Origin: a virus
Direction: 5' to 3' (one strand)
Virus record (IMG/VR): IMGVR_UViG_3300036768_001582
Coordinates: 1 to 30,086 of that record
Length of the DNA stretch: 30,086 bases
Below the pieces are notes generated by a model. That model ran no database searches. It had not been told where the DNA came from and worked only from the letters and a program-made list of their open reading frames with translations. Below, piece after piece: positions 3,277 through 26,775 of this stretch; position 1 is the stretch's first letter; each line of letters starts with the position of its first letter. The position numbers were made by a program, and so were the translations under genes.

Positions 3277-3296
3277 CACCCACCTCGCGGTGGGTG
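3277..3296. terminator. Hairpin at the convergent junction
   Basis: CACCCACC (3277-3284) and GGTGGGTG (3289-3296) form a perfect 8-bp stem with the loop TCGC. It lies between the stops of the convergent genes ending at 3232 and 3332. Neither side has a clear T-run, so it may be an imperfect or Rho-assisted terminator serving both strands. GC-rich GCGCCGGCGCG-type sequences flanking it (about 3235-3245 and 3305-3320) could extend the structure. Confidence 0.5.
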
Positions 3297-3331
3297 GACG
3301 CTCCGCGCGCGCCGGCGCGCCTTCGACGCTA

Positions 3332-3934
3332 TCACGGAGCGAGCGCGGTCGCCTCGGCCTTCGGCGGCGCGCGGTGCGCGAAGAGCGCGAACGCGAGCGA
3401 CATGCGCGTGCGCGAGAGGCGCCGGCCTTCCTCGGAGTCGCACGAGCCGCGCGCGTACAGCGCGAGCCGCTCCGACACGGGGAGCGACGAGCACGCGCGG
3501 AAGGACTCGCGCGCCATCCGGAGCACGACCCGCAGGCACTTCTTGCGGTCGGCGACGAGGTCGGGGCCGGTCCAGCCCTCCGCCGTCGTCTTCTCGCCGT
3601 TCGCGTCGAGGAGGACCTGCCCGATGCACCACGAGCGGCCGTGGTCGCCGCGCGTCACGCCGGCGTCGACGTCCTTGTGCCAGTCGCTCTCGTACCGCGT
3701 GAGCCCGAGCAGGACGGTGGCGGTGCGCTCGCGCGCGGCGTCGCCCCGGAACAGCGGCGGCTCCGCGTCGTCCCACACGACGTCGACGATGTCGGCCGCG
3801 ATGGCGCCGTAGCGTGCGGTGCGTTCGGCCACCGTCTCGCGGCGCGCGTCGAGCGAGATGAGGGGGACGACGCGCTCCGGCGGGAGCGTCCACGTCATGA
3901 GCGAGAGCAGCCAAGCGGCGAAGAGGGCTTTCAT
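3332..3934 (-). CDS. Secreted lytic-transglycosylase-like protein (probable cell-wall hydrolase)
   Basis: The protein has 200 residues. Residues 1-16 (MKALFAAWLLSLMTWT) look like a signal peptide. Glu82 in RYESDW, followed by GRSWCIGQV at 99-107, matches the catalytic Glu plus the G...G.xQ motif of the lysozyme-like SLT fold. Near the C-terminus, ALYARGSC...RRLSRTRM resembles the last helices of this fold. Cysteines 103, 133, 148 and 165 could form disulfides, which suits a periplasmic enzyme. Such proteins cleave the glycan strands of peptidoglycan. As the last gene of the lysis region it could be the endolysin, exported by its own signal rather than released by a holin. The fold is likely; lysis as its role comes from position. 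Confidence 0.72.
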   Translation of the reverse strand: MKALFAAWLLSLMTWTLPPERVVPLISLDARRETVAERTARYGAIAADIVDVVWDDAEPPLFRGDAARERTATVLLGLTRYESDWHKDVDAGVTRGDHGRSWCIGQVLLDANGEKTTAEGWTGPDLVADRKKCLRVVLRMARESFRACSSLPVSERLALYARGSCDSEEGRRLSRTRMSLAFALFAHRAPPKAEATALAP

Positions 3935-18943: not shown

Positions 18944-21535
18944 TCACGCCGGCGCGGGCGTCGGAGCGCCCGGCGTGCGAGCAGCGGTGCCGGCCTGGTG
19001 CTTCGCGACGGCCTCGCCGACCTTCTCCCCGTCGAGCACGACGGTCGTGACCGCGGTGGTCTGGATGGGCGGGGCGTTCGCCGCCGCGGCGGCGTTGGCG
19101 GCGTTCTGCGCCACGGGGACCGTCGCGGGCTGCGCGCCGCCGGTCGCGAAGAGCGCGGAGCGGTCCTTGCCGCCGGTGGCATTGATGAGCCCGAGGCCGT
19201 CCTGGGTGCTGTTCAGGAGCGAGTCCTTCTCCGCGGTGAGGGCGCCGGCCAGGTTGCTCTTCTTGCCGAAGGCCCCGGCGACCTTGTCGACCACCGCGAG
19301 GATGGACCCGACGAAGCCGTTGAGCAGGTTCAGGAGGAACTGGACGACGCCGTAGACCATCCGCGCCATCCCCTGCCACGCCTCGCCCCAGCGGCCGGCG
19401 AAGACGGCGTTGATGAACTGGATGAAGCCGGCGAGCATGTTCCAGAGGCCCTGGAACATTCCGATGACGCCGCCGGCGAGCGAGGCGACGACCGCGACGA
19501 CGGTGGCGAACGCGTTGACCATCCCGGCGATGGCGTTGACGATGGCGCCGACGACGAAGCCGACGACCTGCCCCAGCGTCTTCCACATCTCGCCGTTCGC
19601 GGAGCCGCCCTTGGAGACGAGCCCGAGCGCTTCGCCGATGCGGACGAAGGACTCCAGCACGTTGCCGAAGGCCGTCGAGAGCGGGAGCCCGAGCTTGCGC
19701 ATCTCCTGGAAGACCTGGATGGCACCGCTGACGAACTTCGCGACGTTCGTGAACGCGTCCACGACGAATTCGGCCACCTTGCCGATAATGCCGCCCACGC
19801 GCTCGCCCGTCTCGCCGAACGTGCGGAACGCCTCCGCCGCCTCCCAGGGCTTGTCCTGGACGAAGCCCAGCATGGCGCCGATGCTCTTGAGCGCCTGGAC
19901 GAGCCGGTCGAAGGCCGGCCGCAGCGTCGCCATCGCCTCGGTGAAGCCGCGGCCGACGCCCGCGAAGAATTCCTTGATGCGGTTGAACCAGAGGAACGCC
20001 TGGATGGCGAACGCCTTGATGCCCTGGTTCTCCGCCTTGTTCAGCTCCGTGAGGACGGAGCCGCTGAAGCCGCCGTCGGAGAAGACCTGGACCAGCGCGT
20101 CCCACGCCAGCTTCACCTTCTTGTAGGTGTCGTCGACGAAGTCCTTGAAGCCGCCCAGGTTCTCTTCGTACGCGCGCTTGAAGAGGTAGAAGGCCGCGAC
20201 CGCGACGCCGGCCATGACCGCGAACTGAAGCATGAGCCCCGCCGCGGCGGCGAGCGCGATGAGCAGCGCTTCGCCGGCGGCCGCCGCGGCGGCGATACCG
20301 GAGACGATGCCGAGCAGCCCGCCGACGACGAGCAGCGCGACGGAGGTGAACGCGAGGAAGCCGGCGGCGACCTTCTTGACGATGGGCGGCGCTCCGGCGA
20401 ACGCCTTGACCGCCTTCGTCACGAGCCCGGTCAGCTCCTTCACCATCGGCAGAAGCGCGTCGCCCATCTGGACGAGGACGGTCTGGACGTTCGCCTTCAG
20501 GATGCTCCCCTGCATGGCCATCGTCGCGGACATCTCCTTGAACGCGCCCTCCGCGCCGCCGGAGCGGTGCTTCATGCCGTCGAGCATGTCGTTGAACGCC
20601 TTGCCGTTGTTCGCGGTGAGCGCGGTGATGGCGTTGCTCGCCTCGACGGACCCGAAGAGCTTGGTCAGCGAGTCGGCGGTGAACTTGGAGGACTTCGTGA
20701 TGCTGTCGAGGAAGCCCTTGAGGCCCTTCGACCGGAGCGTGGCCGCATCGAACTTGATTCCGAGGCGCTGCGCTTCGTCGGCGGCGTCCTTCGTCGGGTG
20801 CGCGATGTTCGCCATCGCCGCCTTGAGGCCCGTGGCCGCCGCGCCGGTGTCGCGGAGCAGCGTCGCGCCGGTGCCCATCGCGGCAATCATCTCTTCCATG
20901 GACACGCCGGCGTTCTTCGCGCTCGCGGCGAGGTCACCGACGTACTGGCCCAGCTCTCCCACGGTCGTCTGACCGCCCTTCACCGCGACGAAGAACGCAT
21001 CCGAGATGTCGCCGGCGTCCTTGAAGCTGAGCCCGTAGTTGTTCATCACCTTCGTGATGCCGGTGATGGCGGTCGTCTGGTCCGTCTTGCCCGCGATGGC
21101 GAGACGGTTGGCGGCGTTGAGGAGCTGCTGCGCGTCGGCGGCGTTGGCGGCGCCCGACGAGATGGACTGGTACAGCGCCTTCGTCTGCGTCTCCAGGTCG
21201 CCGCCGTACGTCGTCGCGAGCTCCTGAACGAGGTTCCGCATCTCCTCGATGGAGAAGTTGGCGTGGGGCACGAGGGTGCCGACCTCGGCGATGCCGACCT
21301 CGAATTGCGCGGCCTGGTGGACGGCGAGCCCGAGGGCGGCCGCCCCGACCGTACCGGCCACCTTCATCTTGTCGCCGATGCCGCCCATCTGGGAGCCGAC
21401 GTCCTCGAAGGACACCTTGGCCTTCTTCGCGGCCTTCTCCGTTCCCGCGAGCTTGTTCGAGACGCTCTCCAGCGCCGGCGACGCCTCGTCCTTCGCGGAG
21501 ACGTGGAAGCCGAGCCCCATGTTGTTGAGCGCCAT
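18944..21535 (-). CDS. Tail tape measure protein
   Basis: The protein has 863 residues. The N-terminal third (residues 60-330) holds the conserved tape-measure region: QAAQFEVGIAEVGTLV, TQTKALYQSISSGAANAADA, NRLAIAGKTDQTTAITGITKVMNNYGLSFKDAGDISDAFF and GTGATLLRDTGAAATGLKAAMANIAHPT. Hydrophobic segments lie near 395-465 (AFLAFTSVALLVVGGLLGIVSGIAAAAAAG) and again near 640-740 (VGFVVGAIVNAIAGMV, VVAVVASLAGGVIGMFQGLW). By the usual 0.15 nm per residue, the tail would be roughly 130 nm; this is inference. It directly follows the putative frameshifted chaperone gene, as in most long-tailed phages. Assignment is firm. Confidence 0.92.
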   Translation of the reverse strand: MALNNMGLGFHVSAKDEASPALESVSNKLAGTEKAAKKAKVSFEDVGSQMGGIGDKMKVAGTVGAAALGLAVHQAAQFEVGIAEVGTLVPHANFSIEEMRNLVQELATTYGGDLETQTKALYQSISSGAANAADAQQLLNAANRLAIAGKTDQTTAITGITKVMNNYGLSFKDAGDISDAFFVAVKGGQTTVGELGQYVGDLAASAKNAGVSMEEMIAAMGTGATLLRDTGAAATGLKAAMANIAHPTKDAADEAQRLGIKFDAATLRSKGLKGFLDSITKSSKFTADSLTKLFGSVEASNAITALTANNGKAFNDMLDGMKHRSGGAEGAFKEMSATMAMQGSILKANVQTVLVQMGDALLPMVKELTGLVTKAVKAFAGAPPIVKKVAAGFLAFTSVALLVVGGLLGIVSGIAAAAAAGEALLIALAAAAGLMLQFAVMAGVAVAAFYLFKRAYEENLGGFKDFVDDTYKKVKLAWDALVQVFSDGGFSGSVLTELNKAENQGIKAFAIQAFLWFNRIKEFFAGVGRGFTEAMATLRPAFDRLVQALKSIGAMLGFVQDKPWEAAEAFRTFGETGERVGGIIGKVAEFVVDAFTNVAKFVSGAIQVFQEMRKLGLPLSTAFGNVLESFVRIGEALGLVSKGGSANGEMWKTLGQVVGFVVGAIVNAIAGMVNAFATVVAVVASLAGGVIGMFQGLWNMLAGFIQFINAVFAGRWGEAWQGMARMVYGVVQFLLNLLNGFVGSILAVVDKVAGAFGKKSNLAGALTAEKDSLLNSTQDGLGLINATGGKDRSALFATGGAQPATVPVAQNAANAAAAANAPPIQTTAVTTVVLDGEKVGEAVAKHQAGTAARTPGAPTPAPA

Positions 21536-21559: not shown

Positions 21560-21847
21560 TTACTTCTTTCGCGCCGCCTTCTCCAGCGCGCGCTGCTCCG
21601 CGGTGCGTTGTGCTTCCAGCATCTCGCACCAGCGGACGAAGCGCCGCCACTCCATGGCCTCGACCTCGCTGAGCGTCAGGTTCGTTCCGGAGCCGCCATG
21701 CTGCTTGTAGCAGAGCTGGAACACCGCCTTGTCGATGTCCTCGCTCGCGACCGGCGGCACGATGGCCGCCAGCGAAGGGCTTAGCGCGCCTTCTTCCGCT
21801 GCGGCATCCAGAACTCCTTGCCGAAAGGGAGGTTCATCTCCTGGGTG
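21560..21847 (-). CDS. C-terminal extension of the tail assembly chaperone, made by -1 frameshift
   Basis: This frame is open from the stop at 21850-21848 down to 21560. As a separate gene it could begin only at the GTG at 21760 (66 residues), which has no ribosome site. Following a -1 slip at 21829-21823 it adds 87 residues to the upstream protein, joining at P-F-R-Q-G. Residues after the GTG (DKAVFQLCYKQHGGSGTNLTLSEVEAMEWRRFVRWCEMLEAQRTAEQ) resemble the small helical gpT-like or DUF6760-like proteins found before tape measures, with the motif LSEVEAMEW.RF. This arrangement fits lambda gpG/gpGT-type chaperones, where the longer form is made in small amounts and recruits the tape measure. Confidence 0.72.
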   Translation of the reverse strand, partial: HPGDEPPFRQGVLDAAAEEGALSPSLAAIVPPVASEDIDKAVFQLCYKQHGGSGTNLTLSEVEAMEWRRFVRWCEMLEAQRTAEQRALEKAARKK

Positions 21848-22527
21848 TCACCGCACGCCGGGCAGACGACCTCGATGGCCGACTCCACACCGCCGTCCAT
21901 CTCGTCCAGGAGCGCGAGCACCTCCGCGGCGTCGTCCAGGTCCAGGTCGTCGAGGAACTTGAACTTGTCGTTCGCGTGGACGCCCTCCACCTCGACGATG
22001 CGCGACGCGAGCGCGGCGGTCATCTGCCGCGCGCGATTCTGCTTCATGAGCTGCTCGGCCTTCTTCTCGCCCTCGCCGTCCTGGAGCCGGTACCAGAACG
22101 CGCGGCCCGTCGACGGGAACGTGGCGGCGAGGCGGTTGCCGTTCTTGAACGCCTCGACGGCCAGCTCCGGGAGCGGCTTGAGCGGCAGGTCGTCCAGCGA
22201 CAGCTCCCACTCGAAACGCTCGCCGCACGCCGGCGCGGAGCAGCGGACCTTGAACGCATACTCCGGCCCGTACGTCTTCACGCGGACCTTGAGCATCAGG
22301 ACGAAGCGGTCGCACACGAGCACGCGCGGCCACGCGACCTTCCCCGCCGCGTCGAGCGTGTAGGGGCCGGCGTCCGTCGTCGCCTGCCAGACGGCGCCGT
22401 ACACCGAGTCCAGCGCGGACCCTTTGCGCTGCTCGGCAGCGCTCGCGAGCATGTTGGCTTCCGCGACCTTGAGGCCGCGAATCTCGCCGGCGAGGCCGGA
22501 CGGCAGGACGATGGACGACGTCGACAT
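21781..22527 (-). CDS. Tail assembly chaperone / T4 gp26-like protein with a Cys4 zinc site
   Basis: The protein has 248 residues in the zero frame. The N-terminus (IVLPSGLAGEIRGLKVAEANMLAS) and the following WQATTDAGPY...VLVCDRFVLMLKVRVKTYGPEYAFKVRC resemble the T4 gp26-like family found before tape measures of contractile tails. Cys96, Cys101, Cys222 and Cys225 (RCSAPACG and VCPACG) suit a zinc-binding site. Codons 234-235 (CCT TTC) sit in the heptamer C-CCT-TTC at 21829-21823, where a -1 slip would carry translation into the frame ending at 21560 and give a 322-residue product. The start at 22527 has a GGAGG site. Position between tube and tape measure supports a tail assembly chaperone; baseplate-hub function is the alternative. 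Confidence 0.78.
   Translation of the reverse strand: MSTSSIVLPSGLAGEIRGLKVAEANMLASAAEQRKGSALDSVYGAVWQATTDAGPYTLDAAGKVAWPRVLVCDRFVLMLKVRVKTYGPEYAFKVRCSAPACGERFEWELSLDDLPLKPLPELAVEAFKNGNRLAATFPSTGRAFWYRLQDGEGEKKAEQLMKQNRARQMTAALASRIVEVEGVHANDKFKFLDDLDLDDAAEVLALLDEMDGGVESAIEVVCPACGDTQEMNLPFGKEFWMPQRKKAR
21823..21829 (-). promoter_or_regulatory. Putative -1 ribosomal frameshift heptamer CCCTTTC
   Basis: The coding strand reads CTC CCT TTC GGC in the zero frame, so the heptamer C-CCT-TTC has the X-XXY-YYZ form used for -1 frameshifting. It lies 14 codons before the zero-frame stop (21783-21781), exactly where the overlapping -1 frame is open, and the -1 frame continues to the tape measure gene. 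No other heptamer of this form was noticed in the overlap. No downstream stimulator was established by eye. Confidence 0.65.
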
Positions 22528-22608: not shown

Positions 22609-23073
<465 letters not shown>

Positions 23074-23110: not shown

Positions 23111-25354
<2,244 letters not shown>

Positions 25355-25695: not shown

Positions 25696-26775
25696 CTATG
25701 CCTCCTCGGCGAGAGCGAGCTGGTAGATGCCCGGCGAGAGATACACCGGCCAGGGGAGCGGCCCGCCCGTGACAGGGTCCGTTGTACCATCACCCACGAG
25801 CACATCGCCACCAGCTCCGGTGCCCGGCGTAGCCGTTCCCGGGGTCAGCACGACCTCCTCGATGGGAGCCGTCCGGCGCACGACCATGTCAGGGTCGTCG
25901 AGGTCGACACCGCGGACGACGATGGCGCCGGAGAACTGCCGCACGTTCGATTCGTTCGGCGTGTTGCCCGTCTGGGGGTCGCTCGTGAGGGCCAGCTCGT
26001 ACCGGACGCGCCCCGCGCTCGCGTCGGCGGGGTCCCGCTGTACGTACAGGTAGGGGTTGCGCTCGAAAAACGCCGCCACCTCCTGCTCGATGTTGAGCAG
26101 CTCGATGACGCTCTCCGACGCCCCGAGCAGGTTGAAGCCGACGTCGACACACCGCGCCGGCCGCAGCGTCGCGAAGCCGCCGGGGACGGTGACCTGGCGC
26201 GGCACGTTGGAGCTGTAGAAGCGGTTGAGCGTGAGCTGCGGGCCGACGAGGACGAGCGACGGCAGCTCCGCAATCTCGATGGTGTTCAACCCATCCGCAG
26301 GCGTCGCGTCGAAGTCGGTGTGCACGGTCACGGAGACGTTCTCCATGACCTCGCGCTTGAGCGCGCGGAGCAACGTTCGGACGACGCGAGCGAGGATGCG
26401 CTCCGCGCTGAGGCTCTCGCCGGAGAGCATCGGGCGCCGAAGCGTGAGCGCGGCGGGCAGCGTGACCGTCTCGCCGGGGATGGTCGCGCCGCCGGCGTCG
26501 ACGTTGTCGACGCGGAGGCCCACCACGCCCGGGTCGTGCGACGGGACGAGCACGTGGAGCTGGGTCGCGGAGACGACGTCGACGCGCTCGACCTCGGTGA
26601 GCGCGCCGCCCGCGGCGACGAGCCACGCGCGAACGCTCGCCGGGGGCTTCGGAGCGGGGCCGGTCGCCGGCGGCGCGGCGGGGAGCTGGAAGTTGGACCC
26701 CTGGACGACGACGAGAAAGCGGCCGCCGGTCACGCCCGACGTCGGGGAGAGCGACGAGATGGTGGGGACCGCCAC
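25696..26775 (-). CDS. IPT/TIG-domain protein in the tail-terminator position
   Basis: The protein has 359 residues, starting at the GTG at 26775. Residues 1-105 are an IPT/TIG Ig-like domain: VPTISSLSPTSGVTGGRFLVVVQGSNFQ...VDVVSATQLHVLVPSHDPGVVGLRVDN. After a helix (AERILARVVRTLLRALKREVMENV) comes a beta-rich part (SVTVHTDFDATPADGLNTIEIAELPSLVLVGPQLTLNRFYSSN, then RYELALTSDPQTGNTPNESNVRQFSGAIVVRGVDL) whose order and place resemble a tail terminator/completion protein. The last 60 residues are Gly/Pro/Thr-rich. It lies between the tail-completion gene and the sheath gene. The Ig domain is well supported; the terminator role is inferred. Confidence 0.68.
   Translation of the reverse strand: MAVPTISSLSPTSGVTGGRFLVVVQGSNFQLPAAPPATGPAPKPPASVRAWLVAAGGALTEVERVDVVSATQLHVLVPSHDPGVVGLRVDNVDAGGATIPGETVTLPAALTLRRPMLSGESLSAERILARVVRTLLRALKREVMENVSVTVHTDFDATPADGLNTIEIAELPSLVLVGPQLTLNRFYSSNVPRQVTVPGGFATLRPARCVDVGFNLLGASESVIELLNIEQEVAAFFERNPYLYVQRDPADASAGRVRYELALTSDPQTGNTPNESNVRQFSGAIVVRGVDLDDPDMVVRRTAPIEEVVLTPGTATPGTGAGGDVLVGDGTTDPVTGGPLPWPVYLSPGIYQLALAEEA

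Follow-up and report, generated by a model that had tools for sequence, protein, structure and literature searches.

A predicted -1 frameshift site connects a gp26-like gene to a T-like domain ahead of the tape measure gene of a contractile-tailed phage

Does the small open reading frame between the gp26-like gene and the tape measure gene of this virus encode a protein of its own, or is it the end of a longer protein, reached by ribosomes that change frame near the end of the gp26-like gene? The sequence concerned is a single stretch of 30,086 nucleotides, positions 1 to 30,086 of the IMG/VR record IMGVR_UViG_3300036768_001582 (hereafter the window), for which the initial annotation proposed a programmed -1 frameshift at a CCCTTTC heptamer. 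We consider that the window encodes a tail assembly chaperone of the G/GT type, built on the T4 gp26 family, with its long form made by -1 frameshifting, and give this reading a rough probability of 0.93. The tail genes around the site are as follows.

23111 to 25354, minus strand: tail sheath protein (phrog_17610 and phrog_23)
22609 to 23073, minus strand: tail tube protein (gp19-like), the upstream neighbour of the gp26-like gene (PF06841, E 4.6e-34)
21781 to 22527, minus strand: gp26-like gene, 248 amino acids, the proposed short (G-like) chaperone of Cys4 zinc-ribbon type (PF12322, phrog_150)
21560 to 21823 including the stop, minus strand: -1 extension (RQG...RKK), 87 amino acids, the T-like domain proposed for the long form (group A homology, phrog_20255)
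18944 to 21535, minus strand: tape measure protein, 863 amino acids (PF10145, E 1.9e-25; phrog_991, E 3.2e-59)

Since a tail sheath gene is present, the tail is contractile. The genes are aligned in the order sheath, tube, gp26-like, T and tape measure, and the gp26-like gene is thereby located between the tail tube and tape measure genes, the placement of a G/GT-type chaperone. An IPT/TIG-domain protein (PF01833, phrog_16236) is encoded upstream of the tail sheath gene, at 25696-26775 on the minus strand.

The elements at the junction between the two frames are listed below.

21838 to 21842, minus strand: AGGAG, Shine-Dalgarno-like, a possible stimulator, 8 nt upstream of the heptamer
21823 to 21829, minus strand: putative slippery heptamer C CCT TTC, in phase; CCCTTT[C/G/A] stands at the homologous codons of related loci (group A, below)
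21781 to 21783, minus strand: zero-frame stop TAA, the 14th codon after TTC, with 13 sense codons between
21758 to 21760, minus strand: GTG, the earliest possible start of the -1 frame after the site, at residue 22 of the extension; judged not to be a real start

Re-reading of the sequence confirmed the heptamer at 21829-21823, its X-XXY-YYZ phase and its distance of 14 codons from the zero-frame stop. The -1 frame is open across it, from 21844 to a stop at 21562-21560, and ends 24 nt ahead of the tape measure ATG at 21535, also as first described. The predicted product of slippage has 235 + 87 = 322 residues, with the junction reading ...NLPF and then RQG.... Counted over 12 likely genes with 4,057 codons in all, CCCTTT occurs in this phase only at this place, and CCT accounts for 5 of the 214 Pro codons; the presence of the heptamer at this position is not a matter of chance. 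At 70% GC, an open -1 frame says little by itself, so that relatives were needed and the weight of the argument rests on conservation.

The first seven relatives were collected by protein-pattern scans of IMG/VR. Two DNA patterns (C-P-x-C, 8 residues, P-[F/L], 3 or 4 residues, F-W) were then scanned, with codon choices left open so as not to select for the heptamer, and gp26-like frames were picked from the matches with a profile of the first seven and sorted into groups automatically. Group A consists of at least 18 loci; one is the window again, recovered from another contig, and there are two pairs of nearly identical loci, so that about 15 are distinct. Every one of these relatives is a metagenomic contig; no isolate of group A was found among 50,697 phage records, which gave just weak gp26-like matches, and two scans of cellular genomes gave no matches. 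Among the matches listed, all 18 group A loci carry CCCTTT[C/G/A] at the homologous Pro-[Phe/Leu] codons. They form one clade (support 0.91), and their proteins are 29 to 48% identical to that of the window, a divergence that leaves little doubt of constraint on the heptamer. The probability of the fixed bases, calculated from the codon usage of each locus, ranges from 0.003 to 0.15; the product of about 1e-31 is an index and not a P-value because the loci are related.

The two reading frames are conserved together with the heptamer. After the F-W motif, the zero frame of group A ends with a basic or polar tail, while the -1 frame continues for another 140 to 314 nt beyond the zero-frame stop, into the T-like domain, in 18 of 18 loci, and the -1 products align with one another. 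The distance from the T stop to the next, tape-measure-type start is between -1 and +31 nt throughout the group, and the N-terminus of that next gene reads MALNxLGLGFxFTAxDxAS in most loci, with deviations in L035, L036, L038 and L041.

One could suppose that CCCTTTN is kept by the requirement for Pro-Phe/Leu or by codon bias, with no meaning for decoding, and the Pro at the site is indeed invariant in the wider gp26 family as well. That wider family, however, retains Pro-[Phe/Leu] while varying freely among CCG, CCA, CCC and CTN, and in those loci the -1 frame mostly closes near the end of the gene. Group A genomes are GC-rich, yet the rare codons CCT and TTG or TTA are employed at this position. 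We regard a constraint on the amino acids or the codons alone as extremely unlikely.

A different explanation is that the small reading frame is a separate gene, translated by re-initiation at the GTG of 21760 after termination at the TAA about 20 nt upstream. This GTG is present, with a weak GGCGG 5 nt upstream of it, and the family phrog_20255, which matches the -1 extension with an E-value of 1.7e-8, treats the piece as a separate protein of 63 amino acids. The initial annotation had described the GTG as the only start, lacking a ribosome site; it is the first start after the heptamer and only the weak GGCGG precedes it, but it is not the only one, as further in-frame starts exist deeper, within the domain. 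An AlphaFold model of the -1 product consists of four helices (mean pLDDT 84), with order beginning at residue 18, and both the first predicted helix and the conserved SLA[AG] residues stand upstream of the GTG, an equivalent of which is absent from the relatives. A possible separate start of T is found in L009, L011 and the window, but five loci (L003, L006, L007, L027 and L050) contain no ATG, GTG or TTG ahead of the domain core, so that, as judged from sequence, the domain can be made there only as an extension. Since the separate gene would also leave the fixed CCCTTTN of 18 out of 18 loci unexplained, we consider it very unlikely. For the fold of the T domain itself, all BFVD and PDB matches were weak (Foldseek E >0.8), and the names that some of them carry, tape measure chaperone for one, are leads only.

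The signature of a -1 site is thus present in group A, with a heptamer of the X XXY YYZ form in phase and conserved and the -1 frame open behind it. The comparative data, i.e. the heptamers and frames of 18 of 18 loci and the starts that are absent from several of them, strongly support the original proposal of a programmed -1 frameshift, and slippage at CCCTTTC is most likely the route to the long form.

As to stimulatory elements, structure in the RNA downstream of 21823, which had been suggested as a check, was not supported. No 3' stem or pseudoknot stood out above dinucleotide shuffles, either in the window (z -0.11) or in the 18 relatives (mean z -0.43). Downstream RNA structures accompany many -1 sites, although not all bacterial sites need one, and upstream Shine-Dalgarno-like stimulators occur at some bacterial -1 sites. 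Within group A, pairing with the anti-Shine-Dalgarno sequence 4-18 nt upstream of the site has a mean energy of -8.2 kcal/mol, a value that low being reached in none of 5000 samples drawn at random elsewhere in these genes, indicating enrichment of a Shine-Dalgarno-like element; it is weak or absent in L024, L036 and L038.

Fusion by slippage of the RNA polymerase instead of the ribosome would equally join both frames, and no sequence result here favours it. The homopolymer runs in CCCTTTC are too short for polymerase slippage, and the phase exactly fits tandem -1 slippage on the ribosome; the probability of a transcriptional origin is close to nil.

What follows is the course of ribosomal -1 frameshifting that we infer, including the slippage and how often it happens, the movements of the tRNAs and the role as a chaperone. 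Most ribosomes would terminate at the zero-frame stop and produce the short form of 248 residues. A minority, positioned at CUC CCU UUC while tRNA-Pro occupies the P site and tRNA-Phe the A site, would slip as both tRNAs move one base back, from CCU UUC to CCC UUU, probably aided by pairing of the upstream AGGAG with 16S rRNA. The slipped ribosomes would then produce the long form of 322 residues with its helical T-like domain, and the two forms would be made in a set ratio. By analogy with lambda gpG and gpGT, many short and few long copies might coat the tape measure protein, and the T-like part might recruit the tail tube protein. A chaperone of the G/GT type would be expected to bind the tape measure protein, to be missing from the virion and to be required for tail formation.

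The chaperone role of the gp26-like protein is most likely in view of gene order, family and fold. The protein matches PF12322 (T4_baseplate) with an E-value of 1e-11 and 45.4 bits, above the curated cut-off of 24.5, and phrog_150 with 6.6e-12; four cysteines (C96, C101, C222 and C225) are invariant across 35 aligned sequences, and the identification as a Cys4 gp26-like protein therefore holds. The AlphaFold model of the 248-residue protein has a mean pLDDT of 95. For its N-terminal half the closest PDB matches are 2ob9, the HK97 tail assembly chaperone, and 3fgx, tied at a middling Z of 5.7, covering 73-81 residues (2ob9: 73 aligned, rmsd 3.4) and with Foldseek E >0.1. Over its whole length, the protein matches baseplate hub proteins of the T4 type in BFVD, for example that of SP-15 (E 1e-15). 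Structure matches to the zinc ribbons of NrdR and Tim15 span residues 88-234 and, taken with the invariant cysteines, place the slippery codons immediately behind the final strand of the zinc ribbon. No second PF12322 gene is present in the 62-kb record, which is possibly incomplete, and the T4 arrangement of two genes, one short and one long (gp26 and gp51), was not found there. The initial annotation had regarded a gp26-like protein as an unusual host for such a site. This view needs correction, because the N-terminal half is similar in fold to a tail assembly chaperone and T4-like tail assembly chaperones have, according to later summaries of the work, already been proposed.

Other routes to a T domain were detected in the gp26 family. 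Group B comprises at least 108 loci by automatic sorting, mostly T4-like in character. Its zero-frame protein matches that of group A with an hhalign probability of 99.9, and the T domain in its +1 frame matches the group A T domain with a probability of 93. CCCTTT is absent from the homologous site of group B. The zero frame ends there with a near-invariant TTYTTTTGGCCT and a few codons (e.g. L099, L064 and L162; an example site is TTTTTTTGGCCT), the -1 frame is soon closed in most loci, and the +1 frame (FFGLT...) is open and carries the T domain, for which no consistent start codon was found in the group. TTYTTTTGGCCT looks like a site of +1 frameshifting, similar to that of RF2 except that UGG replaces UGA. 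The same layout is present in two named phages, Microcystis phage Mel-JY01 and Flavobacterium phage immuto.

In group C (L082, L139 and L168), two gp26-like genes are aligned in tandem and the second has the T domain fused in frame. Over their whole length, the natural fusions of these three T4-like loci can be aligned with the virtual fusions of the -1 and +1 types. Gene duplication may replace frameshifting there. In T4, the PF12322 profile detects both gp26 (E 8.8e-64) and gp51 (E 3.9e-52). The C-terminus of gp51 was considered as a T domain, but its last 50 residues or so, taken alone, gave no significant match to the T profiles, so that the link between gp51 and the T domain is positional only.

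Several further phages were noted in passing. SP-15 (L186), Listeria phage LIS04 (L189), Streptomyces phage BRock (L187) and LuckySocke (L188) have a +1 T-like extension, unannotated or annotated separately, that follows the baseplate hub gene and precedes the tape measure gene, and the junction before the stop is CGA TTC in SP-15 and LIS04 and GAA CTC in BRock and LuckySocke. Agrobacterium phage Atu_ph07 (L192, locus 3290-3531) has T TTT TTC just ahead of the stop of its gp26-like gene, followed by an open -1 frame that looks like a T-like extension and of which a piece is annotated as a separate hypothetical protein. The 595-kb uncultured phage LR756511 (L191) has, near locus 3268, a -1-frame T-like domain behind a gp26-like gene whose tail is rich in Arg; the expected place holds CCA TTA, not CCT TTN.

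We incline to the view, with some reserve, that the gp26 family changed its route to the long, T-carrying form several times, and that the mode of decoding evolves rather than the protein pair. The routes on this reading would be an apparent -1 shift at C CCU UUN in group A, apparent +1 shifts at UUU UGG in marine T4-like phages and Mel-JY01 and at CUU UGG in immuto, other apparent +1 or -1 sites in SP-15, LIS04, BRock and Atu_ph07, and a duplicate with T in frame in the three group C loci and perhaps also in T4 gp26/gp51. The -1 clade, the apparent +1 relatives and the copies fused in frame would then make up a series in which the gain, relocation and loss of a recoding signal could be followed while the two proteins are retained. 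Frameshifting would also account for orphan small reading frames such as phrog_20255.

According to PMC5009743, long-tailed phages other than T4 conserve the frameshift of their tail chaperones, and a gp26-type clade with a fixed -1 site may link T4 to this general rule. In the literature searched, we found neither an account of C CCU UUN as a conserved site among gp26-like genes nor the CCCTTT motif with a frameshift in tail genes; group A would thus supply C CCU UUN as a slippery heptamer new to that literature. One of the closest comparisons is lambda, of which the gpG/gpGT chaperones and the conserved -1 frameshift were described by Xu, Hendrix and Duda in 2004, as summarised in PMC5009743. 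The window resembles lambda in that G and T stand just upstream of the tape measure gene, the short and long forms come from one gene, and the slip is located near the 3' end of G. The slippery heptamer of lambda is G GGA AAG, whereas the window has C CCU UUN, a gp26-like Cys4 protein of PF12322 and a contractile tail.

PMC3004832 names T4 gp26 and gp51 among the chaperones of hub assembly. T4-like tail assembly chaperones with a short and a long gene were proposed by Vladimirov et al. in 2022, as cited in PMC10274946 and PMC12846349; some T4-like phages have one short chaperone gene and one longer fused gene (PMC10274946), and chaperone genes of T4-like phages contain poly-T sites (PMC12846349). 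The T4 pair belongs to the same Pfam family as the window protein and likewise consists of a short protein and a longer relative, but T4 has two genes on opposite strands and the window a single gene with its putative frameshift site. Group B shares with the window a homologous zero-frame protein and T domain, but its T domain is in the +1 frame after TTYTTTTGGCCT. The Vandenendeviridae and Andersonviridae have GTTTTT as the -1 site of their tail chaperone (PMC12846349). They resemble the window in their contractile tails, in a -1 site that ends the short chaperone gene and in an extension located before the tape measure gene and usually annotated as a separate hypothetical protein; the motif is different, and the likeness is drawn on site and layout.
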